Assembly (NCBI GenBank): GCA_018242295.1
Contig: JAFECE010000011.1
Span: forward strand, 806,001-870,000
Direction of reading: 5' to 3'
Length of the DNA stretch: 64,000 bases
Source: Pseudomonadota bacterium
GTDB taxonomy: Bacteria; Pseudomonadota; Alphaproteobacteria; Rhizobiales; Hyphomicrobiaceae
Both the position numbers and the translations under genes were made by a program. Shown piece after piece: positions 48,859 to 62,632 of this stretch; within the stretch, counting starts at the first letter, position 1, and every line of letters begins with the position of its first letter. Under the pieces are notes generated by a model. The model was not told the origin of the DNA and did not search any database. It saw only the letters and a program-made list of their open reading frames with translations.

Positions 48859-50064
48859 CTACGCAACCGAAAAGCTGGCTTCCGATTGTTCCTCAATTCG
48901 ATCGCGAATCTTATCAAATTGCTTGCGGGTCTCGAACCAAGGCGAAATTGCGCTTCTCAGCCGCGAACTTAATTCGAAGCGACGGCCTCCACTCCAGACT
49001 TGTGCGAATGGCGTCATCGATTCTGTAAGTCGAGACTCGACCGGCGCGCCATTCGCCCAAATTACTTGATGATCTTCCAACTCGATGTGGAAATACGTGA
49101 TCAACTCGCCGTCGTAATCCGAGCAACGCACAATTGACCTGCCATTCACCAAATTGCCGACTGTTATAAGAACGCTATCGACGTAGAGAGCGTGATTGGG
49201 CGAGAGGTAGAGGTCGCTCTGTGGCAGGTTCGGACCTAGCGCACCCTGGCACACCTTGATTGGAGCAACGTCGTCACTCCATTTCTCGCCGACACGACGT
49301 TCAGCCGTCCAACTCCGAATTTTCCTAATCGTCCGAGTACTTCCTGAAATCGTCGGGAGCGTATCTCCCGCACGAAGGTCCTCGACCGTTCTTTCGAAGT
49401 TTGACGTCAGGATCTTGGTGCCTGCTAGAAAGCAAGCAACACCACCGCCTCCGCCCCAGCTCGAGCCACCGCCGCCGGAACCCGGGCCGTCGCCTCCAAA
49501 ACCAAAGTCCCAGCCATTACCGCCGCCGCCGGTATTCCCGCCGCCACCACCACCACTGCCGCCGCCCGAATTCCCGTCACTATGGCCGCCGCCGGAATCT
49601 TTGCCGCCAGCGTTGGCATTGTCACCGCCGGAATTTCCGCTACCAGCATTGGCACTGCGGCTGCCGGAATCCCCGCCGCCGCCACCACCGCCGCCGCCGG
49701 AACCCCCGCCGCCACCGCCGGAACCTCCTCCGCCAGCGTTAGCACCGCCGCCGGAACCTCCGCCTCCGCCGCCACCGCCACCACCACCGCCTTGGCAGAC
49801 ATGATGGGACGAATCCGAATTGTTGCGCCAGTTGCCACCGCTCTCGCGACCGGTGTCGCAAAACCGATCACCTTTGTCGCCGCTATTTCCAGGACCGTCG
49901 GTCGGAGGGCTCCAGCCGGCGAAAGCGCTTTTCGCTGCAATAGTTGATGCGAGAGCCGTAGAGCCAACTATACCCGCAATTGCGATCACGTTGCGCCGTG
50001 TTCTTCCATGGCTGGCCTTCGTCACACCGCCCGACCGAGCTATTTGCGTTTCAATATGGGACAT
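48859..50064 (-). CDS. Hint-domain protein with long glycine-rich region
   Basis: 401 residues. A signal-like N-terminus (RRNVIAIAGIVGSTALASTI) is followed by a Trp/Pro/Asp-rich stretch and about 120 residues of nearly pure Gly with Ser/Asn (about 92-210). The C-terminal part begins GVACFLAGTKILTSNFERTV, the start of a Hedgehog/intein (Hint) domain, with LSPNHALYVDSVLI (about 305) as the later TxxH-type block. Hint domains can self-cleave at the N-side Cys (VACFLAGT). Bacterial secreted Hint proteins of this length usually carry the domain alone. The glycine run may be a spacer or surface-adhesion region. Confidence 0.8.
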   Translation of the reverse strand: MSHIETQIARSGGVTKASHGRTRRNVIAIAGIVGSTALASTIAAKSAFAGWSPPTDGPGNSGDKGDRFCDTGRESGGNWRNNSDSSHHVCQGGGGGGGGGGGGSGGGANAGGGGSGGGGGGSGGGGGGGGGDSGSRSANAGSGNSGGDNANAGGKDSGGGHSDGNSGGGSGGGGGGNTGGGGNGWDFGFGGDGPGSGGGGSSWGGGGGVACFLAGTKILTSNFERTVEDLRAGDTLPTISGSTRTIRKIRSWTAERRVGEKWSDDVAPIKVCQGALGPNLPQSDLYLSPNHALYVDSVLITVGNLVNGRSIVRCSDYDGELITYFHIELEDHQVIWANGAPVESRLTESMTPFAQVWSGGRRFELSSRLRSAISPWFETRKQFDKIRDRIEEQSEASFSVA

Positions 50065-50432
50065 TTCACTCTACTCACAACAACTTGGGTGCCCACTTGC
50101 AAGATGGGTGACAAAGTAGGGCTCGATTGCAATCTGCGCCCGATTTAGGTGACCGCCCGTTGCCGCAGGATAACAGGAATAAGTCAGACGCGGCATCTTT
50201 TTCGCTTAATCCGGCCGCTGACTGCCTATATTGCAACGCACACTGATCTTCTTCGGCACCTGCAGCCACGAACGCCGAAACGTCCGATCAGTGCTGATCC
50301 AAAACAAAAAGCGGTTGGAAGTGTCTAAGACGGAATTTCGGTATACGCGTCATTTACGTCCGTATCACTTTGCGCCCGATTCTAAGCACATTGTGATGTT
50401 CAACGTTGGAGAAACCACGGGGGATTTCTCTA

Positions 50433-50945
50433 GTGAAACATCGATTTGTGCTAATCTTAATGGCGGCTGCCATTGCGAATGTCTGTGGGCACCGCGCCGA
50501 GGCCGCGTCGATCAAAATCGCCGGCCAGTCAATGAGCTGCGGCTCGACGCCAGTGTTCTCGGATTCCACCCTTCCGATGGAAGGACGGTTTGTGCCGGGC
50601 AGGGGAATCTACGTTAACCAACAACTCATGCAGCGTCAGCCGTCCGCGGTCCGCATGTTCGTGTTCAAGCACGAATGCGCACACAAGACCGTCGGCGGAA
50701 ACGAACTCGCCGCTGACTGTGGCGCTGCCCAATCGGGTGCGCGCGAAAAATGGCTGACGCCGGCCGGCGTCGACGCCGTGTGCAAAGCATTATCGGGCGA
50801 ACCCGCGGGCGGAGGGTATCCGTCCGGGGCCACGCGGTGCGCGAACATACGAAAGTGCTACGCCAATTCGTCCGCACAGTTTGCGTATCAGAAATCTACT
50901 GTACAAAAATCGGCGGGTAGCGGCCGACTGCAGTCAGCAAATTAG
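50433..50945 (+). CDS. Small exported HExxH protein (putative metallopeptidase)
   Basis: I prefer GTG at 50433 (VKHRFVLILMAAAIANVCGH), which puts the signal peptide at the N-terminus; a TTG at 50406 is in frame. 170 residues. Residues about 80-100 read MFVFKHECAHKTVGGNELAA, an HExxH zinc motif followed by a possible third ligand in NELAADC, as in gluzincin-like folds. Four more Cys in the C-terminal part suggest disulfides. Activity not proven. Confidence 0.65.
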   Translation: MKHRFVLILMAAAIANVCGHRAEAASIKIAGQSMSCGSTPVFSDSTLPMEGRFVPGRGIYVNQQLMQRQPSAVRMFVFKHECAHKTVGGNELAADCGAAQSGAREKWLTPAGVDAVCKALSGEPAGGGYPSGATRCANIRKCYANSSAQFAYQKSTVQKSAGSGRLQSAN

Positions 50946-51006
50946 AATCCACGAAGTGAAGAAAGTGGCGGACGGAATTTATTCGGTCTGCCACTTTACA
51001 TTCGCA

Positions 51007-51552
51007 TTAGCGGCGGAGACCACCTCGGAACCCGCCGCGGAAGCCACCACCTCTCCAACCTGCGCCGCGCCAGCCGCCAGCTCTCCAGCCGACACCGCGC
51101 CAACCCGCACCGCGCCAGCCCCAGCCAGCGCCTCTCCAGCCCCAGCCTCTACGGAAGCCGTAGCCGACTCCTGGATAAGCTGCTCGCCAACCCCAGGGTC
51201 TACGCCAGCCCCAGCCAGCGCCTCTCCAACCCCAGCCAGCTCTCCAGCCCCAGGGTCTACGCCAACCCCAGCCCGGGCCTCTCCAGCCCCAGCCAGCTCT
51301 CCAACCCCACGGTCTGCGCCAACCCCAGCCGCCGACAACCGGGTAGGTTGATCTCCAGCCCCAGCCAGCTCCCCAGCCCCAGGGTCTGCGCCAACCATAA
51401 CCCGCAGCCACCGGAGCTACTGCTGCCGCGCGCCAGCCATATCCTGCCCCCCAGCCGCATGCTTGTGCTGACGTCGTGAGAGTGCCGCCGCCAATTGCCA
51501 GCGCAATTGCACATATGGCAATTTTTATTTTCGAAGCATTTCTGATAGCCAT
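51007..51552 (-). CDS. Secreted Gly/Trp/Arg-repeat protein
   Basis: The ATG at 51552 has AAGGAGG 6 bp upstream; 181 residues. A signal peptide (IKIAICAIALAIGGGTLTTS|AQA) precedes about 150 residues built from repeats such as GWGWRRPWGW and RAGWGWRGAGW, ending GGGFRGGFRGGLRR. Trp, Gly and Arg make up most of the mature chain and there is one Cys. Such a chain cannot fold as a normal globular domain; it may bind polyanions, membranes or the cell surface. DNA repeats here give false Pro-rich frames on the other strand. Confidence 0.8.
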   Translation of the reverse strand: MAIRNASKIKIAICAIALAIGGGTLTTSAQACGWGAGYGWRAAAVAPVAAGYGWRRPWGWGAGWGWRSTYPVVGGWGWRRPWGWRAGWGWRGPGWGWRRPWGWRAGWGWRGAGWGWRRPWGWRAAYPGVGYGFRRGWGWRGAGWGWRGAGWRGVGWRAGGWRGAGWRGGGFRGGFRGGLRR

Positions 51553-52068
51553 CTGTTTCCTCCTTAAGCTATCCGAGCGCTCCAACGCTCTTCGCGCCAA
51601 CCGGTGCTGTGCGCTGCAGTTCCATTGTGCTTTTTCGTAAGCTTAACCAATTGAATGCTTGGTAATTACCGGCGAACGGGATTCCGCCGTACAGCGATCG
51701 TCGCCGATGGTTGTCGACAAGTCCGCTTATGGGATTCAGTAGCCCGCAAATGCCCGGATACTTCGTCAGAACCGAGATCAATCGGCGAAGAATTGGAGAA
51801 GAGCTGCCAGCGTCGCCTGAGGCGTCTCGTCAGGAAGGAAGTTTCCGCAATCGAGCGCTTTGCCCTGGAGGCAACCTCGCGTTTTCTCCCGCCAACATTC
51901 TAAGCACGTGCTCCTTCCGCAATTCCGATCAGCGGCGCCCCCGCCCCTTTCGGGCGCAGAACCTATAGGTCTCCCCAAAAACGGGGATGGTCGGTCGACG
52001 CGATATAGGAGACAGAAGTGCCCGTGAGCCCCGACTGCCGGGCGAGGGGACGCCGCGCGGGCTCAAAG

Positions 52069-52116
52069 GCCGAGAGGTACACGGAATGGAGATGATCTCC
52101 AATTGTGCCTCTCGGC
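52069..52116 (+). ncRNA. Nested stem-loop upstream of the 52158 gene
   Basis: GCCGAGAGG (52069-52077) pairs with CCTCTCGGC (52108-52116), and inside it GGAGAT-G-ATCTCC (52088-52100) forms a second stem. The 48-nt structure ends 41 bp before the next ATG, in an otherwise empty 605-bp region (51553-52157). It could be a leader structure, a small RNA or a terminator; no T-run follows. Confidence 0.35.
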
Positions 52117-52157
52117 TCTTCTGATGGTCAATTTCCGACGCAGTAGAGTGACACCAA

Positions 52158-52406
52158 ATGCTAACTGACCTGAGCGCTTACCATAGAGCACTCCTCTACG
52201 AGATACGTTGGCATGGGGGCGTGCTTTTCGTCTCAAAAGACGCCTATGCCAACATATTTAGCGAGCTTGTTAAAGCTCGCTACGTTTTTAGGGAACCAGC
52301 AGGACCTGGAAGATATCGCTATGAACTGACCCTTCGCGGCCGCAACGAGCTGCAAGGCGATCTGCTTGGAAGTGGCGAGCGCCACAAGCGTCAAGGAATG
52401 AGCTGA
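52158..52406 (+). CDS. Small winged-helix-like protein (82 aa)
   Basis: The sequence (LSAYHRALLYEIRWHGGVLF, FSELVKARYVFREPAGPGRY, RYELTLRGRNELQGDLL) has the helix-helix-wing order of a small DNA-binding domain with a C-terminal LTxxGR turn. It converges on the luxR gene with a 16-bp overlap of the ends. Function unknown. Confidence 0.6.
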   Translation: MLTDLSAYHRALLYEIRWHGGVLFVSKDAYANIFSELVKARYVFREPAGPGRYRYELTLRGRNELQGDLLGSGERHKRQGMS

Positions 52407-53143
52407 AGGCGGACCGCCAGAGCCACAGCATGGATCGGGGTCTGGACGCCCAATTTGGCTTGGGCTTTCTTGATATGACTGCGTACCGTTTCCTCGCCGA
52501 GCGCCAAATCTTTTCCAATCTCTGCCACGCGCCTGCCTAGCGACAGTGCGCGCAGTACGGCCAGTTCGCGCGGGGTGAGGTATGCCCCTTTGCCGAGACG
52601 TTCGATGCATGGCGGTGCGAGTTGCTGCAAACGCTTCGTCGCGAATGCAGCACCCATATACAAAAGCGATTTATCAGATGATTGAAGACTCATAAGTTTC
52701 GGAGACCAATAGGCGAAAATCCAGCGCCCTCCTATTGGGCATCCGAGGCTGTCGCGGATGCCGTATTTCAAATTCAACTCCATTGCCCAACGGTCGATGC
52801 CGATGGGTTCGAGTGATTTCATGAGGTCCGAAAAGGTAAAAGGTGCCATCGCGAGGCGCGCTGCGATATCGCCGGGTGCGGGAGATTGCTTTGATAGCTC
52901 TAGGCGATCTTCCCACCATCCCTTCGGCACGCTTTTGTGAAGGAACGCTGTCTTTCCGATACAGAGAGCTTCAGTCGTTCCGAACTTGAGGGGCAGCAAT
53001 GCGCCACCAAGCACATGTATGTGTGCGTGGGACCAAGTAATTTCATCGAGGGAATTGAGCACCGCCGTCGGGTCCGGAAGGTCATCGGCTTGCTTGGTAT
53101 AGTCAAGCATTTCAGCTGCAAACGGCGTGGGCATTGGCTGCAC
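52391..53143 (-). CDS. LuxR-family regulator (autoinducer-domain type, solo)
   Basis: 250 residues from GTG. The N-terminal two thirds (about 20-165) carry the autoinducer-domain pattern with a WWEDRLELSKQSPAPGDIAA region and SLGCPIGGRWIFAYWS. The C-terminal HTH is canonical: YLTPRELAVLRALSLGRRVA, EIGKDLALGEETVRSHIKKA, QAKLGV. No luxI synthase is in the window, so it would sense signals made elsewhere or another ligand. A palindrome lies 10 bp upstream. Confidence 0.88.
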   Translation of the reverse strand: MQPMPTPFAAEMLDYTKQADDLPDPTAVLNSLDEITWSHAHIHVLGGALLPLKFGTTEALCIGKTAFLHKSVPKGWWEDRLELSKQSPAPGDIAARLAMAPFTFSDLMKSLEPIGIDRWAMELNLKYGIRDSLGCPIGGRWIFAYWSPKLMSLQSSDKSLLYMGAAFATKRLQQLAPPCIERLGKGAYLTPRELAVLRALSLGRRVAEIGKDLALGEETVRSHIKKAQAKLGVQTPIHAVALAVRLQLIP

Positions 53144-53152
53144 CCTTTAAAA

Positions 53153-53167
53153 TGTTGCCCGGCAACA
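53153..53167. promoter_or_regulatory. Palindrome upstream of luxR
   Basis: TGTTGCC-C-GGCAACA, 7-bp arms around one base, 9 bp before the luxR start. A likely dimer-binding site, perhaps for LuxR itself. The rest of 53168-53875 contains no gene that I can support. Confidence 0.5.
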
Positions 53168-53875
53168 AAATTTCAATTAACCGCCGGCGCTAACAATCAC
53201 ATCCGATGCTGAGGGCTAGGTTCTGGTGGAGATAAACGGCGGCGCGTCGTGAAAAATCGCACCCCTACGGTTCTGCAGGGAGGATGCAAGAGCTGGTTTC
53301 GCTTCGGTGCTGATGAGGTCGCCGGATCAATGGTCATCGGGCACCACTTGGGACCTTGACTCGCAGAGTCTATCTATATGGTCTTCGTCAACAAGCCTTC
53401 GCCGTTCTTGTTCGACTGCAACAGATTTGGTTTGTAATCATCAGTGGCTTGGTACGCGGCGACGGTCGAAGAGAATAGCGGACACGACAAATCGTCAAGG
53501 AATGATGAACCGTAGAGTGTCCGTGGAATTAATGCCGCTCGCGAGACGCAATCCATGCAATTGCTGCTTCAGCGGTTCAATGCTTTTCGTCTGGTAGAGC
53601 AGGACGGGGCCGAAGATCTTTTTATGCTCGACACGAGATCCAGCCCCTGTACGGTTCTCATGCCGGGCTGCGTTTTCCGGCTGGCCCTTCCGCGCAGAGT
53701 GAGCGCTCTCCCGTTTTTGCAACGGCGGCAGGAAGTGCTTTTTGCGCCATTCGATTTAGGCTGATTGACCTAAACTTTAGAGGACGAGCGGCGACGTCAT
53801 CTTCCCTAACGAGAATACGAAGCCCCATGATCCTGCTTCCATCCGCTGTCCAATCGACTGATTTTGGTGCGCGCG

Positions 53876-54193
53876 TTATTTCTTGGGCAGTTGGCAGACA
53901 GCGCCGTTGGCCTTGGCAACTTTGATGACATCCGGCGCGGCGGTGACGATCCCGCTTATCTTCCCGCGTGCCAACGCGAACGGCGCGCTTTCGATATCGT
54001 AATCGCGAATGGCTTCGGCGCCAAAGGATTCCGCAACCGCGCATCCTTCATCGGAATAGCAGGCCACGGTGCTGTCAGGTCCGGGCGGGTCGTCCTTGGG
54101 GTTGATGCAGACAATTTCGGGATCGCTTGCGTGCGCGGCAGGGCAGGCGAGTGAAGCGAAGACAAGGAAGAGCCAAGGCAACAACGTCCGCAT
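53876..54193 (-). CDS. Small secreted Cys-containing protein (105 aa)
   Basis: The ATG at 54193 starts a signal peptide (RTLLPWLFLVFASLACPAAH|A); the frame is open further upstream, and another ATG lies at 54202. The mature part has four Cys (PEIVCINPKDD, TVACYSDEGCAVAESFG, GAVCQLPKK), suggesting two disulfides. Family unknown. No good ribosome site is seen. Confidence 0.5.
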   Translation of the reverse strand: MRTLLPWLFLVFASLACPAAHASDPEIVCINPKDDPPGPDSTVACYSDEGCAVAESFGAEAIRDYDIESAPFALARGKISGIVTAAPDVIKVAKANGAVCQLPKK

Positions 54194-54495
54194 GGAAACC
54201 ATCGCAGATGGGGGAGATGCATTATGCCTCGTGCACACCGAAGGCACGGGCCAATTCGTCACGAATTTGACAGGTATGGTATACAGCGCCTGCTGACGGA
54301 CGAAAGCGCCCCCCGAGGAGGCCTGTTCCGCGCGCAATGCCTCGGTCATCCTCAACTTGGCGGATAAAGAGGTCCGTACCGTCTCCGATGACGATTGCCG
54401 GCCCTTTGGAGAGTGATCTTGTGCCGACCCGTTGACAACAGCGGGGTCGCTTCTGCTTGTTCTCTACCCGGAGTGAGAGGCGGTGGGAGAGGCCG

Positions 54496-57400
54496 GTGGA
54501 CCAGATCTTTGTGCTGTTGGTGTGGGCAATCATCGGGGGGATAGTCGTCTTCCGGCTGCGTGGTGGCACCTGGGCCGATCTCAAAAAATTCCGGTTGTTT
54601 AGAGCCCTTGCGCCCAAGCAGTCACTCGGCACCGAGCTGCACACCATCAGCAAGACACTGGAACCCTTTGCTTGCGATTCCGCGCACACGAACGAACTCG
54701 CTGAGAACGCCGACTTTAAAAACGCGGTGGCCCTTCTTGCTGATCCAAACGTCCCGCTCGAGACGGTATTCGACTATGCTTTTGGGCAGAACTGGCCGCT
54801 CTCGTGTGCGGCTTTCGCCGCCTTGAAGCAGCGGCCTGATGCATTGAGCTTCGCGTCGAAAGTGCTGCCGCGCTTCGACGGGTTGTCCGTCTGGCAAATG
54901 ACGTTTGCATTCCAATATTTCTTGAAGGCCGATCCGCGCCCGCCTGCCGGAGCGTTTCTCGTGGGACTTCGTGACTGGTGGGCGGACAACGTTCTTTTGC
55001 GTCATCTCCTTTCGGATCACTTCGCTGCCCTCGGCGCGGACGAGCCCGCCGAAGTTGGTCCCGAGGTCATGGCGTTGCCGCTCTGGAAGCGGGAGCAAAT
55101 CAGGGATTTCCTGGCGCTCGTCAGTCACCCGATGGCGGTGCGTCTCGCTGCGAAGGTCGTGCCTGCCGGTCCTCAACAGGATATATCGCCGACGACGTCC
55201 CCATCCCCATCATCGTTCCTGTCATCGATCGGCCGCTTCTGGGCGAACAACACCGAAAATGGACTTCTGATCGAACCTCAAGGCTGGAAAGATGCGCTCG
55301 GCGCCGCCCAACGGCTGGTGGATAGCGGATCATTACGCATCCTCTTGGTCAGTGGCGAACCGTATGTCGGGAAGACGTCGTTCCTGAAACTTCTGGCCGA
55401 CCGCATAGCCGCGAAAGAGTGGCGCGTCTTTCAGGCCAGCGGCGCCGATCTTCAAGCCGGGCAGATGTACATCGGCCAGCTCGAGGGACGCATCCGCGAG
55501 GTTCTGCAGGAACTGGACGCTGGCAATAAGGTGATTTGGTACGTGCCAGACCTCCTTGGCTTGGCGCTCAGCGGAACCCACCAAAGCCAGAGCGCGAGCA
55601 TCCTGGATCAGATCATGCCTGCGGTAGCGTCGGGACGTCTTCTGATCTGGGCTGAAGCTTCGCTCGCTGCGACGACGAAGCTACAGCAGCTGAAGCCGGC
55701 GGTGAGGCGCCATCTCGAAATCGTGCGCATGGAGGACATGGACGAGGAGGAGGCGATCGAACTTGCCGAAACGCTCGCCGCACGCTTGGAAAAGACAACG
55801 CGGACGCCGATCGATCCGAGTTTCGCCCGGACATCGGTTGACGTCGCTCAAAGCTACCTGACCGCGATGCATCTTCCTGGCTCAGCGCTGTCTCTCATGA
55901 AAATGACGGCCGTTCGTTCGGAGAAAGAGAAAGTCAAACGTCTTGGGAGCCATGAGATCCTGGAAACGCTTTCGCAACTCACGGGGCTGCCGCTGTCAAT
56001 CCTCGATGGTGCGGAACGCTTGAGCCTCGAAGAGGTTCGCGGTTTCTTTCAAGCCCGCGTCATTGGTCAGCCGCACGCCGTCGCGGCACTGGTCGAGCGC
56101 ATTGCGATGCTCAAATCGGGCCTCAACGATCCTGGGAAGCCGATCGGCGTTTTTCTGTTCGCGGGCCCGACCGGCACCGGCAAAACCGAGCTTGCGAAGA
56201 CCGTTGCCGATTACCTTTTCGGCGCGGTCGATCGCATGATCCGGCTCGACATGAGCGAATATCAGACTTACGAGGGCGCGCAAAAAATTCTGGGTGGCGG
56301 CAATCTCCCTGCCGATGCCGAGACGCTCGTGGCGCGAATTCGGAAGCAGCCGTTCTCAGTCGTGCTTCTGGACGAGTTCGAAAAGGCGCACCCGCAGATC
56401 TGGGATCTCTTCCTCCAGGTCTTCGACGAGGGCAGGCTGACGGACGCGACTGGACAGACCGCGGACTTTCGTCATTGCATCATCATTCTGACATCGAACC
56501 TCGGCGCCACCACGCATCGCGATAGCGGCAGCATTGGTTTCAAACCATCCTCTTCAGGTTTTACGGACGAACAAATCTACAAAGCCATTTCTCAGACATT
56601 CCGTCCCGAGTTTCAGAACCGTCTCGACAAAATCGTCGTATTCAAGCCGCTGACGCGCGAATTGATGCGCGGAATTCTCATGAAGGAACTCGCGCACATT
56701 TTCGAGCGGCGCGGTTTGAAAGACCGCGCATGGGCCGTCGAGTGGGATGCCAGCGCGCTCGAGTTCCTTCTCGAAAAAGGCTTTTCACCGGAGATGGGCG
56801 CGCGGCCGCTGAAGCGGGCCATCGATCACTACCTAATAGCGCCGCTGGCGGAAACGATCGTCGAGCGGCGTTTCCCCGAAGGCGACCAATTCGTTTTCGT
56901 CCGCCGCGATGGCGGTGCACTTCGTGCCGACTTCGTCGACCCCGACGGCAAGAGCGACGTTGCGGCTGCATCGCCGGACTCCGCCCAGGCTCTAACGGGC
57001 GCGCCCGCGAGCCTGTTCGACATGATGCGCACGCCATCCGGCGATACCGGCGAGATTGCAAGTCTTGCTGCCGCTCACGAACCAATCGTTCAGCGCATCG
57101 AGTCCGCCGAATGGGCAGCCGAGAAGTCAGAATTGACAGGCGAGATCGGATTGCCTGACTTCTGGTCGCGGGCCGATAGATCGCAAACGCTCGCCCGTCT
57201 GGAGTTGATGGACCGTATCGAGGTTGCCACTGAAACGGCCACCTCGCTCGAGGCGCGTCTGGCGCGGCAGACCGGCAAGAGCATGCGGGAGCTGATCGCC
57301 CGGCTCGCCATGCAGATTCATCTCGTCAATGAGGGGCTAAAGGATCTTGACGAAAAAGCGCCTGTCGAGGCCGCGGTCATCGTTGAACCGGCTTTCGTGA

Positions 57401-57858
57401 TGGATGGCGATGATGGTGAGGCCGCAACGGCATGGTGTGCGGAACTCGGCAGCATGTACCGCGCCTGGGCCCGCAACAGGAACATGTACGCAAGCGAGAT
57501 CGACGCCATTCCGGGTGTGGATGGGAATGCGCTGGTTGTCGGCGGTTTCGGAGCTTATCGCGCCCTTGCCCGCGAAGCCGGTCTGCATATTCTCGAGAAA
57601 AGTGAGGTTGGAGGCAGCCGCGTCACGGCGCACGTCCTCATTGCGAGGCTGCCGCTTGGCGACGCGTCGAAGGCCGAGATCCGCCAAACGCTCGCAGGAG
57701 CATTCGGAGCCAAAGCAAAACGCAGCACGAATATCATCCGTCGTTACAGGAAAGGAGCGACACCGCTCGTTCGGAATGGGGACGGCAGCGTTCGCAGCGG
57801 CCGGGTTGAAGATGTGCTGCGCGGCAACTTCGATCTCTTCGCGCTCGAACAGAATTAG
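54496..57858 (+). CDS. Membrane-anchored ClpB-like AAA+ ATPase fused to a release-factor-like region lacking GGQ
   Basis: GTG at 54496 with GAGAGG just upstream gives 1120 residues (a TTG at 54457 would add 13). It starts with one transmembrane helix (QIFVLLVWAIIGGIVVFRLR), followed by a helical region to about 220. AAA1 has VSGEPYVGKTS (Walker A, about 286-294). AAA2 is clearly ClpA/B-type: IGQPHAVAALVERIAMLKSG, GPTGTGKTE (557-565), LDMSEYQTYEGAQKILGGG, VVLLDEFEKAHP, and the C-terminal ELAHIFERRGL...FSPEMGARPLKRAI. From about 900 a helical arm is followed by a segment resembling peptide-chain-release-factor domain 2 (AAVIVEPAF, AATAWCAELGSMYRAWARNR, VGGFGAYRALAREAGLHI). The end resembles release-factor domain 4 (IIRRYRKG, RVEDVLRGNFDLF). 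No GGQ domain lies between. It may couple unfolding to ribosomes at the membrane; this is inference. Confidence 0.8.
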   Translation: MDQIFVLLVWAIIGGIVVFRLRGGTWADLKKFRLFRALAPKQSLGTELHTISKTLEPFACDSAHTNELAENADFKNAVALLADPNVPLETVFDYAFGQNWPLSCAAFAALKQRPDALSFASKVLPRFDGLSVWQMTFAFQYFLKADPRPPAGAFLVGLRDWWADNVLLRHLLSDHFAALGADEPAEVGPEVMALPLWKREQIRDFLALVSHPMAVRLAAKVVPAGPQQDISPTTSPSPSSFLSSIGRFWANNTENGLLIEPQGWKDALGAAQRLVDSGSLRILLVSGEPYVGKTSFLKLLADRIAAKEWRVFQASGADLQAGQMYIGQLEGRIREVLQELDAGNKVIWYVPDLLGLALSGTHQSQSASILDQIMPAVASGRLLIWAEASLAATTKLQQLKPAVRRHLEIVRMEDMDEEEAIELAETLAARLEKTTRTPIDPSFARTSVDVAQSYLTAMHLPGSALSLMKMTAVRSEKEKVKRLGSHEILETLSQLTGLPLSILDGAERLSLEEVRGFFQARVIGQPHAVAALVERIAMLKSGLNDPGKPIGVFLFAGPTGTGKTELAKTVADYLFGAVDRMIRLDMSEYQTYEGAQKILGGGNLPADAETLVARIRKQPFSVVLLDEFEKAHPQIWDLFLQVFDEGRLTDATGQTADFRHCIIILTSNLGATTHRDSGSIGFKPSSSGFTDEQIYKAISQTFRPEFQNRLDKIVVFKPLTRELMRGILMKELAHIFERRGLKDRAWAVEWDASALEFLLEKGFSPEMGARPLKRAIDHYLIAPLAETIVERRFPEGDQFVFVRRDGGALRADFVDPDGKSDVAAASPDSAQALTGAPASLFDMMRTPSGDTGEIASLAAAHEPIVQRIESAEWAAEKSELTGEIGLPDFWSRADRSQTLARLELMDRIEVATETATSLEARLARQTGKSMRELIARLAMQIHLVNEGLKDLDEKAPVEAAVIVEPAFVMDGDDGEAATAWCAELGSMYRAWARNRNMYASEIDAIPGVDGNALVVGGFGAYRALAREAGLHILEKSEVGGSRVTAHVLIARLPLGDASKAEIRQTLAGAFGAKAKRSTNIIRRYRKGATPLVRNGDGSVRSGRVEDVLRGNFDLFALEQN

Positions 57859-58228
57859 GTGAAGCTCTCGAGGAGAGCAGTGTCAGTTCGATTGTTTCGA
57901 TGACTCAGGTTGCCGGAGGCGGTGGGGTCAAGAATTCGGGTCCTACCGGCGGATTTCAGCAACTGCTGCGCCGCCCTTTTTGCGCTTGGCTGAAGCAAGA
58001 GACTTATCTCGCCCAGTAGGTTATTTCGAGAATTATTCCCGGATTGCTTGGTTGTGAATTCCTGGAAGTGCAGTCTATTTTTCTGCTCGCCAATTTTTTG
58101 ATGCGCAAAGGCCGCCAAGCGGCGGGAAACGATCAGCGCTCGGACGTATTTCCTCAAATCCCGCTGACGGGGTGCGAGAGAATCGCGCCTTTCGTAGATG
58201 TTCGCATCTCAATGGGGGCGGCGAGGTT
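57859..58228. other. 370-bp intergenic region, no gene seen
   Basis: Lies between the AAA+ gene and the TonB receptor. No clear terminator or repeat; the receptor promoter is expected here. Confidence 0.4.
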
Positions 58229-61045
58229 ATGCTTGGATCGTGGCGAATGTGGCTGCAGGCCGTTGCTTCGGTGGCGGTAGCCGTATCGCTCATGTCTATG
58301 GGGACATCGAGCTGTGTGTTGGCGCAGAGCGAAGGACGCGACGCTGCTGCTCCCGCTCAACCCACGAATCCTCCAGCACCATCTGCATCGCCTAATCCGT
58401 CTCCGCCTCCAGCGACAAGTCCTCCGGCACCACAGACGACGAACCCGCCAAACAATGTTCCGGCGCCGGCGACGCAGGCTTCGCCAGGCGCTGCGCTTCC
58501 GGAGGTTCAAATCATTCAGGGACGGACGAAGCCCAAGGCCAAGCCGACGAAGCAAGCACATGCGTCAAAGAAGGTGCCGTCAGCTCCATCGCCGGAAGCG
58601 CCGCCCACGGTAGCCAAGCATGCTGCAAAGGCGCCTCCGCTTGTGACGCCGGCGGCCAAGCCGATTGCACCGGTGGCGGCGCCTGCCGCTACATCGCAGC
58701 AAGCGCCGTCCGCAACTGAGTTCGCGACCTCGGTATCTCCGCCATCCGACGACGTGAAAATGTCGCCGATCGGGGACGAAATTCCGATTGGGAAGGTGCC
58801 GAGCGGGGTCAGCGCGGTCTCTTCATCCCAAATTGCACGAACGCGCAGCGACTACGCGGCGGACGTTCTGCAGGCTTACGTGCCGGGCGTTATCGTGAGC
58901 GACTATCAAGGAAACGGCTTTCAGACGAACGTCGATTATCGCGGTTTCAATTCGTCGCCCGTCGACGGCGTTCCGCAGGGATTGGCCGTCTATCAGAATG
59001 GCGTCCGCATCAACGAGTCCTTCGGCGACACCGTCAACTACGATTTCATCACGCCGATCGCGATCAACGGCATGACGGTCATGAGCGGCAACCCCGTCTT
59101 TGGCCTCAATGCCATCGGTGGCTCAATTGCAATCGATATGAAGGACGGGTTCAAATATCAGGGCTTCGAGTCCGACATGCGCTTCGGATCGTATGGACGC
59201 GTCCAAGGGTCGATCCAGGACGGAATGAAGTTCGGTAACTGGGCGACCTATATCGCGATGGACGCCATTCGCGACGAGGGATTTCGCCAACAGGGGACAT
59301 CGGACATTCGCCGCTTGTATGCCGACCTTGGCGTCAAGGGCGATGGCTCGGAATTCCATTTGAACTTCACCGGAGCCGACAACACCGTTGGTGTTGCCGC
59401 TGCGTCGCCGGTGGAGCTTTTGGATGAAGGTTGGGGTAAGGTCTTTACCACTCCGCAGTCGACGACCAACGAGATGGAAATGGTGTCGCTGAACGGAAAC
59501 GTGCAGGCGACCGATACGTTGCAACTCTCCGGCGTTTCCTACTATCGCCATTTCAATCAGCAGCACATCGACGGCAATATTTCGAATGCTACGCCGTGCG
59601 CGATCAACCCGCCGGGACCGTCGGCGACGGGGGCGTGCCTCGACAATCTCGATGGTACGACCATTCTGCTCCAGGATACCGGCAATAAACTCATCACGCT
59701 TGGCAGCGATACAGGTCTCGGAGAAATCGACCGCACCTCGGTCAACACGAATAGCTTCGGCGGATCGCTGCAAGGCGTCGACAAAACGCCGCTTCTCGAT
59801 CATCACAACCAATTCCTCCTCGGCGGCAGCATTGATCATGGCGAGGTGTCGTTTTCGTCCTCCGCCCAACTCGGCGTTCTGCAACCCAACTTCGTCGTCG
59901 AGGGTGGCGGACCGTTCGTCGGACCCTTCGGCCAAATTTGTACGCTAGAAGCCGATGGTTCGTGCACGCCGACCGGCGGCACAGATCTCTCCGATATTCG
60001 CCCGGTCAGCATCACAACCAAAAACACATACTATGGGCTGTATTTCCTGGACACGTTCGACGCTTCCGACCGGCTGACCATAACGGCGGGCGGCCGATTC
60101 AACGTTGCGAATATCGAGATTCACGACGAGACGGGGTTGGCACCCGACCTCAACAGCAACAACACTTATTACCATTTCAATCCGGTGGCCGGCGGCACCT
60201 ATAAATTGTTCGACGGAGTTTCGCTTTATGGAAGCTTCTCGGAAGCCAACCGCGCGCCGGTCGCCGCCGAGCTTGCTTGTGCAGATCCCAACAATCCCTG
60301 CCTGCTGCCGAGCTTCCTGACATCGGACCCACCGTTGAAGCAGGTCATCTCGTACACGTGGGAAGCGGGCCTCAAAGGCAGCAACACCGATGTGCTCTCT
60401 CACCAGAAGACAACATGGAGTCTGGGCTTCTTCCACACTCTCAATACCGACGACATCATCAATGTCGCGTCGTCGATTATTGGCCGCAGCTCGTTCACGA
60501 ATGCCGGGGACACATTGCGCCAGGGAGTCGAGGCGCAGGTCAATTACTGGTCGGGTCCATTGTTCGCATACGCCAACTACAACTTCGTGGACGCGACGTT
60601 TCAGAGCAATTTGACGATTCCGTCGCCCTTCAATCCGTTTGCGGATGCAGACGGCAATATCTTCGTCCATCCGGGAGACCGGCTGCCTGGCGTGCCGGCA
60701 CATAAATTCAAGGCCGGTGTGGATTATGCCTACACACCGCGATGGAGAATGGGTGCGGATCTTGTTGCCGCGAGCAATCAAATCTTCTTCGGTGATGAAT
60801 CCAATCAGAACGCACCCCTTGGCGGCTATGCCAAGGTCAATTTTCATACGTCGTATGATGTTACGGACCACATTCAGATTTATGGCCTCGTCGACAATGC
60901 GTTCAACGCGCACTATGGCGTCTATGGGACGTTCTTTGACATCAATGCCGCTAATGACGCGACGGGTAGCACCTTCCTTGATCCGCGGACGGTTGTGCCG
61001 GCGGCGCCGATTACGGCCTACGGTGGCCTGAAAGTGAAGTTCTAA
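58229..61045 (+). CDS. TonB-dependent receptor with Pro/Ala-rich N-terminal extension
   Basis: The ATG at 58229 has GAGG upstream; 938 residues. A signal peptide (to VLAQS, about 33) precedes about 150 residues rich in Pro, Ala, Ser and Lys that may span the periplasm. The plug follows (IPIGKVPSGVSAVSSSQIAR, YVPGVIVSDYQGNGFQTNVD, NPVFGLNAIGGSIAIDMKDG), then the barrel, whose last strand ends PITAYGGLKVKF. Small Cys pairs appear in extracellular loops (TPCAINPPGPSATGACLD, AELACADPNNPCLLP). Substrate not predictable; the gene stands alone. Confidence 0.92.
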   Translation: MLGSWRMWLQAVASVAVAVSLMSMGTSSCVLAQSEGRDAAAPAQPTNPPAPSASPNPSPPPATSPPAPQTTNPPNNVPAPATQASPGAALPEVQIIQGRTKPKAKPTKQAHASKKVPSAPSPEAPPTVAKHAAKAPPLVTPAAKPIAPVAAPAATSQQAPSATEFATSVSPPSDDVKMSPIGDEIPIGKVPSGVSAVSSSQIARTRSDYAADVLQAYVPGVIVSDYQGNGFQTNVDYRGFNSSPVDGVPQGLAVYQNGVRINESFGDTVNYDFITPIAINGMTVMSGNPVFGLNAIGGSIAIDMKDGFKYQGFESDMRFGSYGRVQGSIQDGMKFGNWATYIAMDAIRDEGFRQQGTSDIRRLYADLGVKGDGSEFHLNFTGADNTVGVAAASPVELLDEGWGKVFTTPQSTTNEMEMVSLNGNVQATDTLQLSGVSYYRHFNQQHIDGNISNATPCAINPPGPSATGACLDNLDGTTILLQDTGNKLITLGSDTGLGEIDRTSVNTNSFGGSLQGVDKTPLLDHHNQFLLGGSIDHGEVSFSSSAQLGVLQPNFVVEGGGPFVGPFGQICTLEADGSCTPTGGTDLSDIRPVSITTKNTYYGLYFLDTFDASDRLTITAGGRFNVANIEIHDETGLAPDLNSNNTYYHFNPVAGGTYKLFDGVSLYGSFSEANRAPVAAELACADPNNPCLLPSFLTSDPPLKQVISYTWEAGLKGSNTDVLSHQKTTWSLGFFHTLNTDDIINVASSIIGRSSFTNAGDTLRQGVEAQVNYWSGPLFAYANYNFVDATFQSNLTIPSPFNPFADADGNIFVHPGDRLPGVPAHKFKAGVDYAYTPRWRMGADLVAASNQIFFGDESNQNAPLGGYAKVNFHTSYDVTDHIQIYGLVDNAFNAHYGVYGTFFDINAANDATGSTFLDPRTVVPAAPITAYGGLKVKF

Positions 61046-61315
61046 GCGCGAAGTGTATTCGCCAAGCATCTGCCCACTGCTGCGGCGGAGGGACATTGTT
61101 GGGCGTCAAGCTCCATGCGCCTCAAGCTAAGATCGGGATGAAAGATTCGCTTGGGTCGTTTCGGCCACAGACCGGCCGAATGATAGTCTCTATGCCGGAA
61201 CAACTGTGGACTTAACGGCGAACAGGCAGGTGGGCTCTATAGATTCAAAAGGGGACGTGAGTTATCAAAATTGGGGAGCGGTGTGTGCGAAATGTAGCCG
61301 AATGGCGAGGGGCCA
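61046..61315. other. Intergenic region, no gene seen
   Basis: 270 bp between the TonB receptor and the carrier-protein gene; no hairpin with a T-run and no coding frame stand out. It should contain the promoter of the carrier-protein gene. Confidence 0.4.
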
Positions 61316-61597
61316 ATGACGTCTCAGGTAACTTCACTTTTGCTGGATACCATCCAGGCCTTGCTGCCCGCGAATGCTCCCCGGCTCGACGCTGAGAGCG
61401 CGCATACGGTTACGCTGCAATCCTTGAACCTCGATAGCCTGGATACGCTCAAGCTCGCCATGGATCTCGAGGAAGCTCTCGATATGGACATCGAAATCGT
61501 GAATTTCCCCGAGACACTGACGCTTGCGGAATTGGCGGATCGGCTGTGGGCCATGAGAGAGAGAAAGGTCCGTCGCTCCTTGCTCAATGCAGTCTGA
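61316..61597 (+). CDS. Acyl-carrier-protein-like protein
   Basis: 93 residues behind a GCGAGGGG ribosome site. The LNLDSLDTLKLAMDLEEALD segment (about 38-57) is the phosphopantetheine attachment site, with Ser in DSL, and EIVNFPETLTLAELADRLW completes the ACP four-helix fold. It is not the housekeeping AcpP (different helix 2, basic tail RERKVRRSLL). It converges on the P450-like gene with a 14-bp overlap of the ends, which suggests a dedicated carrier in a biosynthetic cluster. Confidence 0.87.
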   Translation: MTSQVTSLLLDTIQALLPANAPRLDAESAHTVTLQSLNLDSLDTLKLAMDLEEALDMDIEIVNFPETLTLAELADRLWAMRERKVRRSLLNAV

Positions 61598-62525
61598 TTT
61601 CGATCTTGATGGGCATTTTGAAGGGGTCGTCGTGAGGGCTCATCTCAATGCCGACGCACTCGCCTCGCAGGTCGCTTTTTGAGAGCCTGTGGGTGACGAG
61701 CGACCAGACACGCTCGGAAATAGATTTTCCGAGGCAGGTATGAACGCCAAAGCCAAACAAAGCTCGCCTGTTCTCATCAACTGAATACGACGGACTTTGC
61801 GTGACGCAGCGGACACGGTCACCCGTTTCCAACTTTAAGTCCGTATAGTCGGTCGTGGCTTGGCACATTCGGTCAACGTAGGTGAGGGAGCTCGAAGGAA
61901 ATGCTTCAGGCCAACTCATCTCGCACATGGGCAAATTTGGGTGGCTTCGAAAAATCTCATAGAGAGAAAGACTGAGGGTGCCGACGAACGGTCTGGCTCC
62001 CAGCGACGCCAGACAAAGAAGGATCAGGCGCTCATCTTCATCTTCGGCGCCGAAATTGCTTTGTAAGAAAGCCGCGATTTTCTCGTTGATTTTCGCCCGC
62101 TCGCGAATGGACAGTATCGGGCTGAATAATCCGGGAATCTCGTCCACAAGGTCGAGAATTTTATCGTCACGTGGAACAATGGACGCTGAAACGGATCGCC
62201 ATAGGGGCTGGGCGAAATCGGCGACCAAGTCTATTTTTGCAGCGGGACGGAAGCAGTGCTGGAAAAGGTCGCCAAGGGACTGGTGAACGGCCGCGAGCTG
62301 GCTTTCTTTCGTGCGAGAAATCTGCTTCGCCATGACTTTGCGGATTCTCTGATGATTTTCTCCACCAATGAAGACGGGCAGATGTTCAAGAAGTTTGACG
62401 GCGGCGGAAAAATCCATCTCCGTACGCCGAGAGAGTTCGCGATACCTGTTCGCCATCGAATAGGTTTCGAAATCTGGGGACAAAATGATGGCTTTTGCGA
62501 TTTGCGCATCTTTGACCAGTTCCAT
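61584..62525 (-). CDS. Cytochrome P450-like protein, short and degenerate in the ExxR region
   Basis: Using the ATG at 62525 gives 313 residues; a TTG at 62570 is in frame. The heme-binding loop FGFGVHTCLGKSISERVW is intact (Cys264). Other P450 pieces are visible: FIGGENHQRIRKVMAKQISR (C-helix region, normally H-x-x-x-R) and TGDRVRCVTQSPSYSVDENR. However, the expected ExxR motif is replaced by EMSWPEAFPSSSLTYVDRMC and the I-helix lacks the acid-Thr pair. Total length is about 80-90 residues below normal. It may bind heme without classical monooxygenase activity or act on a carrier-bound substrate. Confidence 0.75.
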   Translation of the reverse strand: MELVKDAQIAKAIILSPDFETYSMANRYRELSRRTEMDFSAAVKLLEHLPVFIGGENHQRIRKVMAKQISRTKESQLAAVHQSLGDLFQHCFRPAAKIDLVADFAQPLWRSVSASIVPRDDKILDLVDEIPGLFSPILSIRERAKINEKIAAFLQSNFGAEDEDERLILLCLASLGARPFVGTLSLSLYEIFRSHPNLPMCEMSWPEAFPSSSLTYVDRMCQATTDYTDLKLETGDRVRCVTQSPSYSVDENRRALFGFGVHTCLGKSISERVWSLVTHRLSKSDLRGECVGIEMSPHDDPFKMPIKIEIRLH

Positions 62526-62632
62526 GCGAATTATGATTTCCCCCTTCGAATACCGGCGGCAAACTAACAAATCCCTGTACGAAGTAAACGGCAGCTGTTC
62601 GCGAATGGTGTTTTCGGGCTTTTAGAATTCAT

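Follow-up and report, generated by a model that had tools for sequence, protein, structure and literature searches.

What could a body derived from peptide chain release factor 2 (RF2) be doing behind an apparently membrane-anchored Clp-type ATPase? The question is raised by one gene in a stretch of 64,000 nucleotides (hereafter the window) of contig JAFECE010000011.1, from a Hyphomicrobiaceae genome of 4,047,835 bases in 11 contigs (assembly GCA_018242295.1). Its open reading frame (ORF) lies at 54496-57858 (+), where an earlier note made from the sequence alone had placed it, and encodes in order a hydrophobic helix, a helical domain, two Clp/Hsp100-type AAA+ modules (D1 and D2) and a C-terminal body homologous to RF2 (Table 1). 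That anatomy, comprising an N-terminal anchor read from sequence, a Clp-type ATPase and an RF2-derived tail, is near certain, being established by sequence and model together; each of these three parts had been proposed in the earlier note. Pfam finds the Clp-type families listed in Table 1 and, at residues 880-1032, the PCRF domain of release factors, the latter barely over threshold (24.5 bits against a cut-off of 24). NCBIfam models for ClpB and ClpA match far under their cut-offs, and prfB matches at E 1.5e-5. Among 12 members of the family scanned with Pfam, AAA and AAA_2 were found in all 12 and PCRF in 11.

The C-terminal tail is homologous to RF2

A profile built from 13 family tails was searched with hmmsearch against 177,635 distinct PDB sequences. 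The best match was RF2 (5czp, E 5e-14), and all 39 matches below E 1e-4 were RF1 or RF2 (one of them a mitochondrial RF1-like protein), with RF2 ranked before RF1; the next matches after the release factors were proteasome subunits, at E 0.42. Alignment with hhalign to a profile made from the RF2 of other genomes (15 proteins) gave a probability of 98.4 and an E-value of 8.5e-15 across RF domains 1, 2 and 4, with the GGQ region consisting mostly of gaps and a short connecting stretch loosely placed there. The AlphaFold2 (AF2) model of the tail (mean predicted local distance difference test score, pLDDT, 86.5; predicted template modelling score, pTM, 0.84) retrieved only class-I release factors at Foldseek ranks 1-48 (best E 4.8e-9), including a few mitochondrial ones, and an unrelated protein at rank 49 (E 0.068). 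TM-scores were modest (query-normalised 0.26-0.51) and root-mean-square deviations large, which we attribute to the missing domain and to a differing arrangement of the others.

Because profile, profile-profile and fold searches agree, we consider the tail homologous to release factors, and to RF2 rather than RF1; the same three sets of results rule out a chance likeness. Neither a lack of structural likeness to release factors nor assignment to a different fold, the two outcomes that the earlier note had named as fatal to its proposal, was found by the PDB profile search, hhalign or Foldseek. The note had described a helical arm and segments resembling RF domains 2 and 4; the likeness to domains 2 and 4 stands, and domain 1 must be added as homologous too. 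In wider surveys the tail profile also reached proteins that we read as ordinary RF2 or RF1 (in G000, the prfB gene), a further sign of homology: in the family of G1119, of 128 genomes with a match, 120 reach no better E-value than 4.4e-13, and among the matches listed most frames are 350-430 residues long. The genome that carries the fusion also encodes RF1- and RF2-sized PCRF proteins elsewhere, one of them over the prfB cut-off.

Table 1. Features of the fusion gene and its protein, in window coordinates
Feature	Position	Strand	Basis or remark
Fusion gene, 1120 residues	54496..57858	+	GTG start, GGAGAGG directly upstream; alternative in-frame TTG at 54457
Putative transmembrane helix, residues 3-21 (QIFVLLVWAIIGGIVVFRL)	54502..54558	+	hydropathy; AF2 helix 2-21, low confidence
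Helical N-terminal domain, residues about 44-221	54625..55158	+	AF2 model; no Pfam match there
AAA+ module D1, degenerate, residues about 261-480	55276..55935	+	Pfam AAA 283-406
D1 Walker A GEPYVGKT, residues 287-294	55354..55377	+	kept in 17/17
D1 pore loop QMYIG, residues 323-327	55462..55476	+	aromatic residue kept in 17/17; aligned with KYRG/RYRG of ClpB/ClpA
D1 Walker B position IWYVPDL, residues 347-353, DE lost	55534..55554	+	no DE in 17/17 stretches
AAA+ module D2 and D2-small, ATPase motifs kept, residues about 481-815	55936..56940	+	Pfam AAA_2 548-713, ClpB_D2-small 719-799
D2 Walker A GPTGTGKT, residues 557-564	56164..56187	+	17/17
D2 pore-loop place GGGNLPADA, residues 600-608, GYVG missing	56293..56319	+	GYVG in 0/17
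D2 Walker B LLDEFEK, residues 624-630	56365..56385	+	17/17
IGF tripeptide, residues 680-682	56533..56541	+	at aligned place of ClpA xGF loop (ClpP docking)
RF2 domain 1-like helical region, residues about 855-955	57058..57360	+	hmmsearch, hhalign
RF2 domain 2-like region, residues about 956-1053 (MYRAWA, GFGAYRAL, GLHILE)	57361..57654	+	hmmsearch, hhalign, alignment
Short stretch, residues 1035-1081, 47 residues	57598..57738	+	replaces SPF, RHTS, GGQ domain and switch loop of RF2 (121 residues)
RF2 domain 4-like end, residues about 1079-1115 (TNIIRRY...RVEDVLRGNFDLF)	57730..57840	+	hhalign, aligned columns

The tail lacks the signature motifs of a release factor

Release-factor motifs were counted by pattern search and by the residues at aligned columns in 19 members of the family, 18 of which reach the C-terminal part. 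The codon-reading elements SPF, RHTS and the GGTE loop were each found in none of the 19. GGQ is missing from the catalytic place in all 18 members that reach it, and the aligned column of the switch-loop Trp, before IRSY, holds no Trp in the same number. The letters GGQ do occur in seven of the 19 proteins, always before RF domain 2: five times in D2-small (SGGQFLF), and once each in G072 and G073, either within or ahead of the domain 1-like part. The single match to a GW(G/A) pattern, LGWAKK in G072, likewise lies at another place. The stretch between GLHxxE and RRY measures 35-54 residues in the 18 members having it, against 121 in 15 of 15 RF2 proteins. The loss of the GGQ domain described in the earlier note is thereby borne out, as is the shortening; the length given there, about 35 residues, is not, the stretch in the window having 47, and part of it still serves, in the AF2 tail model, as the final strand of domain 2. 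In RF2, the stop codon is read with SPF and other residues, and Trp319 of the switch loop stacks on A1492 (PMC5378476). We infer that the fusion protein is not a release factor.

What the tail has kept is equally uniform. MYxxWA, G(F/Y)GA and GLH(V/I)(L/F)E are present in all 19 members, and RxY...LVR(D/N), R(S/T)GR and V(L/M)xG(D/N)FD in all 18 that reach them, the variable residue of LVR(D/N) being D in 14 and N in four, including the window protein. The residues typical of RF2 domain 4 (RxY with V-R-(D/N), and V-L/M-x-G) stand at their aligned places in 18 of 18. The family thus shares with RF2 (PrfB) a homologous domain order 1-2-4 and the positions MYxxWA, GxxAxxxLxxExGxH, RxY, V-K/R and VLxG, whereas it differs in lacking the GGQ domain, SPF, RHTS, the GGTE loop and the switch-loop Trp, and in sitting behind a Clp-type ATPase.

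A Clp-type motor with a degenerate D1 and no GYVG loop in D2

For the motor, 12 members were aligned with ten ClpA/ClpB rows, and motifs were counted in 17 members. D2 retains Walker A, Walker B, sensor 1, the Arg finger and sensor 2, each in 17 of 17. The earlier note had called this second module canonical, which does not hold: GYVG, present in all ten ClpA/ClpB rows, is missing from all 17 members, and the loop is shortened. D1 has kept its aromatic pore-loop residue and lost the DE of Walker B. Five of the seven members in the G1119 family have PE at this position, where the catalytic Glu alone may remain; the five matches to an hhhhDE pattern among the 17 proteins lie elsewhere, four in D2 (WRLIDE) and one in the N-terminal domain of G1148 (WDLDE). 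With no aromatic pore loop in D2 and no Walker B in D1, the name "unfoldase" is doubtful.

Loops that dock into ClpP follow the consensus [L/I/V]G[F/L]. After D2 sensor 1, 11 of the 17 members have IGF, LGF or MGF, five have PGF and one has PAF. The ClpA rows compared have MGF, IGF or VGF at this place and the ClpB rows do not; in the same genome, ClpA has MGF after sensor 1 and ClpB has no such loop. Both rings of ClpA carry an aromatic pore loop (KYR in D1, GYVG in D2), and the loops with which it docks into ClpP read IGL in E. coli (PMC9663308). The full-length AF2 model, of medium quality (pLDDT 76, pTM 0.50), has ClpC chains as its best fold matches, several of them from ClpC-ClpP complexes, with ClpB and ClpA among the first 50.

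In a tree of the AAA part (17 usable members with seven rows labelled ClpA and three labelled ClpB, the labels assigned from length and loop), the family falls apart from both sets of rows and into three sub-clades without a settled order, a placement that is weak and carries a long-branch warning. The family resembles ClpA and ClpC in its two AAA+ modules, its D2 motifs, its (I/L/M)GF in most members and its best full-length folds, and is unlike them in its hydrophobic anchor, the lack of a Clp_N match, the degenerate D1 Walker B, the missing GYVG of D2 and the RF2-derived tail. The label "ClpB-like" fits insofar as the best NCBIfam match of the fusion is a ClpB model, over D2; that match reaches 317 bits against a cut-off of 1232, and both the ClpA-like loop of 11 members and the separate tree branch set the family apart from ClpB. 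Judged by sequence and model, the family is a distinct Clp/Hsp100 lineage.

An N-terminal hydrophobic segment

All 17 members with an N-terminus begin with a hydrophobic segment (19-residue Kyte-Doolittle mean 1.58-2.80), which is less clear-cut in G147 (mean 1.58) and in G1148 (1.82, against 1.78 elsewhere in the protein). No Lys or Arg precedes it in 16 of the 17; zero to four follow it, with none in G073 and G1231. Since the helix of the window protein has no Lys or Arg before it and four within the 12 residues after it, the AAA part is predicted to be cytoplasmic. The Clp_N domain, which is missing from some Hsp100 proteins, is absent from the 22 Pfam matches of the window protein at E <= 1 and is not among the 25/48 families listed for the 12 members scanned.

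Occurrence and selection

The 19 members collected comprise 16 complete genes, one cut at its 3′ side (G1231) and two cut at their 5′ sides (G1196 and G043), in each case by a contig end. The protein of G014 is 94% and that of G010 81% identical to the window protein (both genomes belong to the same genus), and tails are as low as 29% identical to that of the window. Full fusions were found in four of 60 relatives including the source genome (G000, G014, G010 and G023), and G043 has a tail-only match at a contig end. Larger samples gave eight of 397 genomes for the order (counting G043), two of 385 for the class, three of 398 for the phylum and eight of 147 for the family of G1119; the samples overlap, and all except the last include the source genome. 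At most six candidates were scored per genome (16 in the G1119 family), so divergent members may be missed, and a pattern-limited contig scan, which gave three loci, is an under-count. The patchy distribution makes loss or transfer likely.

Every strong tail match that is not cut by a contig end sits in a frame of 1106-1238 residues. Conversely, a profile of the N-terminal domain plus D1 matched six of 249 genomes at E 1e-30, all of them also carrying the tail; G043, whose contig starts inside the gene, gave no match to this profile. On both counts, the two halves were not seen apart except at contig ends. A frame error or an assembly joint is ruled out, the whole gene lying in one frame in 16 members from separate genomes. 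An apparent second fusion in G077 (an open frame of 1845 residues) was rejected, since the frame begins like RF1 and then runs on into masked N.

In three close pairs, the ratio of nonsynonymous to synonymous substitution rates (dN/dS) of the release-factor part was 0.08, 0.12 and 0.13, rough values given that dS was high in two of the pairs. They are comparable with those of the N-terminal region (0.11-0.14) and D1 (0.04-0.13) in the same pairs and exceed those of D2 (0.03-0.05); domain 4 alone gave 0.07-0.09. These low values indicate that the release-factor body is under purifying selection, even though the known functional residues of release factors are gone.

Neither a phage nor a plasmid origin fits the gene: the tail had no match in phages, no plasmid record covered 80% of the protein, and a pattern-seeded scan of viral contigs found no relative. 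A defence system is likewise poorly supported: PADLOC matched the AAA region only (best DolB, 1.2e-30, over D2 residues 510-670). None of the matches from Pfam, NCBIfam or PADLOC corresponds to the fusion itself. Among the open-access papers listed by literature searches for the fusion or for release-factor bodies lacking GGQ, none names it in the title or the opening of the abstract. The sole literature match for PCRF with ClpA (PMC2877026) lists, in the part available, separate proteins in a table.

Genomic neighbourhood

With ORFs listed for 12 loci and 20 neighbour proteins scanned (neighbours in six further loci being outside the scan), no shared neighbour was found; those present include the exonuclease VII large subunit, an amidase, a nucleotide-sugar dehydrogenase and a TonB receptor. 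A small gene with a signal-peptide-like stretch (MRTL...FLVFASL) lies beside the fusion and divergent from it in G000 and G014 (window 53876-54355 (-); L042 12412-12726 (+)), and at both loci one flank holds a TonB-receptor gene; the window copy has no Pfam match. In G147 and G073, which belong to one family, a response-regulator receiver protein is encoded directly upstream of the fusion, and TPR proteins are encoded near it in G113 and G073 (receiver and TPR neighbours: L037 6628-7200 (-), L041 7335-7919 (+), L038 8147-8806 (-) and L041 5991-6737 (-)). In G773, a DUF4132 protein is near the fusion gene (L046 5666-7816 (-)), with more large ORFs beyond.

Farther away in the window, 48862-50064 (-) encodes a protein that is rich in Gly and carries a Hint_2 domain at its C-terminus (Pfam E 1.9e-33), and 51007-51600 (-) is a short ORF of repeats that by eye resemble GWGWRRPWGWRAGWGWRG. 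On the other side, an acyl-carrier-type ORF (PP-binding) at 61316-61597 (+) is overlapped at its end by a convergent ORF at 61584-62570 (-), cytochrome P450-like by eye and with no Pfam match at E <= 0.001.

What the pseudo-RF2 body may do

The reading that we favour, tentatively, is that the pseudo-RF2 body serves for docking and so brings a membrane-bound remodelling ATPase to components of translation. It would dock on a partner inherited from RF2, most likely a translation component met by domain 1 or by the domain 2/4 surface, the L11 stalk base being one candidate. The ATPase ring, held at the inner membrane, would be brought to ribosomes or ribosome-bound substrates there, and would remodel or extract a client with D2 as the motor and the D1 loops as the grip; lineages with the (I/L/M)GF loop may hand that client to ClpP. 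Supporting this reading are the RF2 homology seen by three methods, the co-occurrence of the parts, the low dN/dS and the kept domain 4 residues, together with the anchor and D2 ATPase motifs in 17 of 17 members, the xGF loop, the ClpC folds and the fact that RF2 domain 1 binds the L11 stalk (PMC5378476).

Several observations weigh against it. Throughout the family, the residues through which RF2 is known to contact the codon and the decoding centre have been lost, the fusion is rare (three of 22 genomes of its own genus), and none of the 20 neighbour proteins scanned has a translation-factor domain, the neighbours moreover differing between clades. As for ClpP, six of the 17 members read PGF (five) or PAF (one) rather than (I/L/M)GF. 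In ClpA-type machines, it is the D2-small side that faces ClpP; the tail follows D2-small, so tail and ClpP might clash.

A rival reading is a protein with no remaining link to translation, in which the pseudo-RF2 body is solely a protein-protein element, whether for ring assembly, as a lid over the D2 face or as a client adaptor. The whole would then be one more specialised Clp protein, an ATPase for quality control or assembly at the membrane. We regard this as a real possibility and rank it second. It draws on the complete loss of the known release-factor motifs (SPF, RHTS and GGTE in 0 of 19 members, GGQ and the switch Trp in 0 of 18), on invariants peculiar to the family (RRY...LVR...RSGR/RTGR) that differ from those of RF2, and on the same lack of translation-factor domains among the 20 neighbours; it accounts less readily for the retention of domain order 1-2-4 and of RF2-typical domain 4 residues in tails that have diverged to 29% identity.

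A precedent exists for yet another use of the fold. Plant chloroplast PrfB3, a relative of RF2 without SPF and GGQ, has been reused as an RNA-stabilising factor that binds and protects the petB 3′ end (PMC5897788). By analogy the tail, with its conserved Arg residues in the domain 4-like end, could be an RNA-binding module that tethers the machine to particular mRNAs or rRNA at the membrane. We think this unlikely: basic residues by themselves say little, a scan of 50000-62000 of the window found no Rfam family, and PrfB3, in the available part of its description, is not presented as fused to an ATPase, nor is an ATPase part mentioned there (PMC5897788). Still less probable is the proposal of the earlier note that the protein docks in the A site as RF2 does without releasing the chain, the unfoldase acting on stalled membrane-protein translation. 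RF domains 1, 2 and 4 are indeed kept, but none of the 19 members has the GGTE loop, SPF or RHTS, none of the 18 that reach it has the switch-loop Trp, and a ring of six tails would be large for the A site. The proposal, though weakened, keeps a small probability because ArfA-dependent rescue by RF2 does not need SPF, ArfA filling the decoding centre (PMC5378476). Our order of preference for the function that we infer is therefore docking on a translation component, then a protein-protein or ring-assembly element, then RNA binding and lastly true A-site docking.

A bolder version of translation-component docking, which we offer as a speculation and think improbable in its full form, is that an RF2 mimic, dead as a catalyst and unable to decode, lets a Clp-type machine tethered to the membrane recognise ribosomes at the inner membrane by their stalk base and A-site entrance. 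Stalled complexes or nascent chains would there be remodelled or extracted by the machine, some lineages passing them to ClpP. If true, this would be a co-translational quality-control route distinct from tmRNA, ArfA/ArfB, RqcH and SmrB/MutS2.

Significance

What is new here is a Clp/Hsp100 lineage with a pseudo-RF2 domain, assembled from parts of known kinds: a conserved pairing of a protein-remodelling motor with a release-factor body stripped of the signature activities of its ancestors. The family is also a natural Hsp100 without a D2 aromatic pore loop. Rare as it is, its conservation hints that protein quality control and translation are connected in a way not yet described. Identifying the partner of the pseudo-RF2 body would reveal if bacteria aim a membrane-bound ATPase at the translation machinery, and also how a release-factor fold can be reused.

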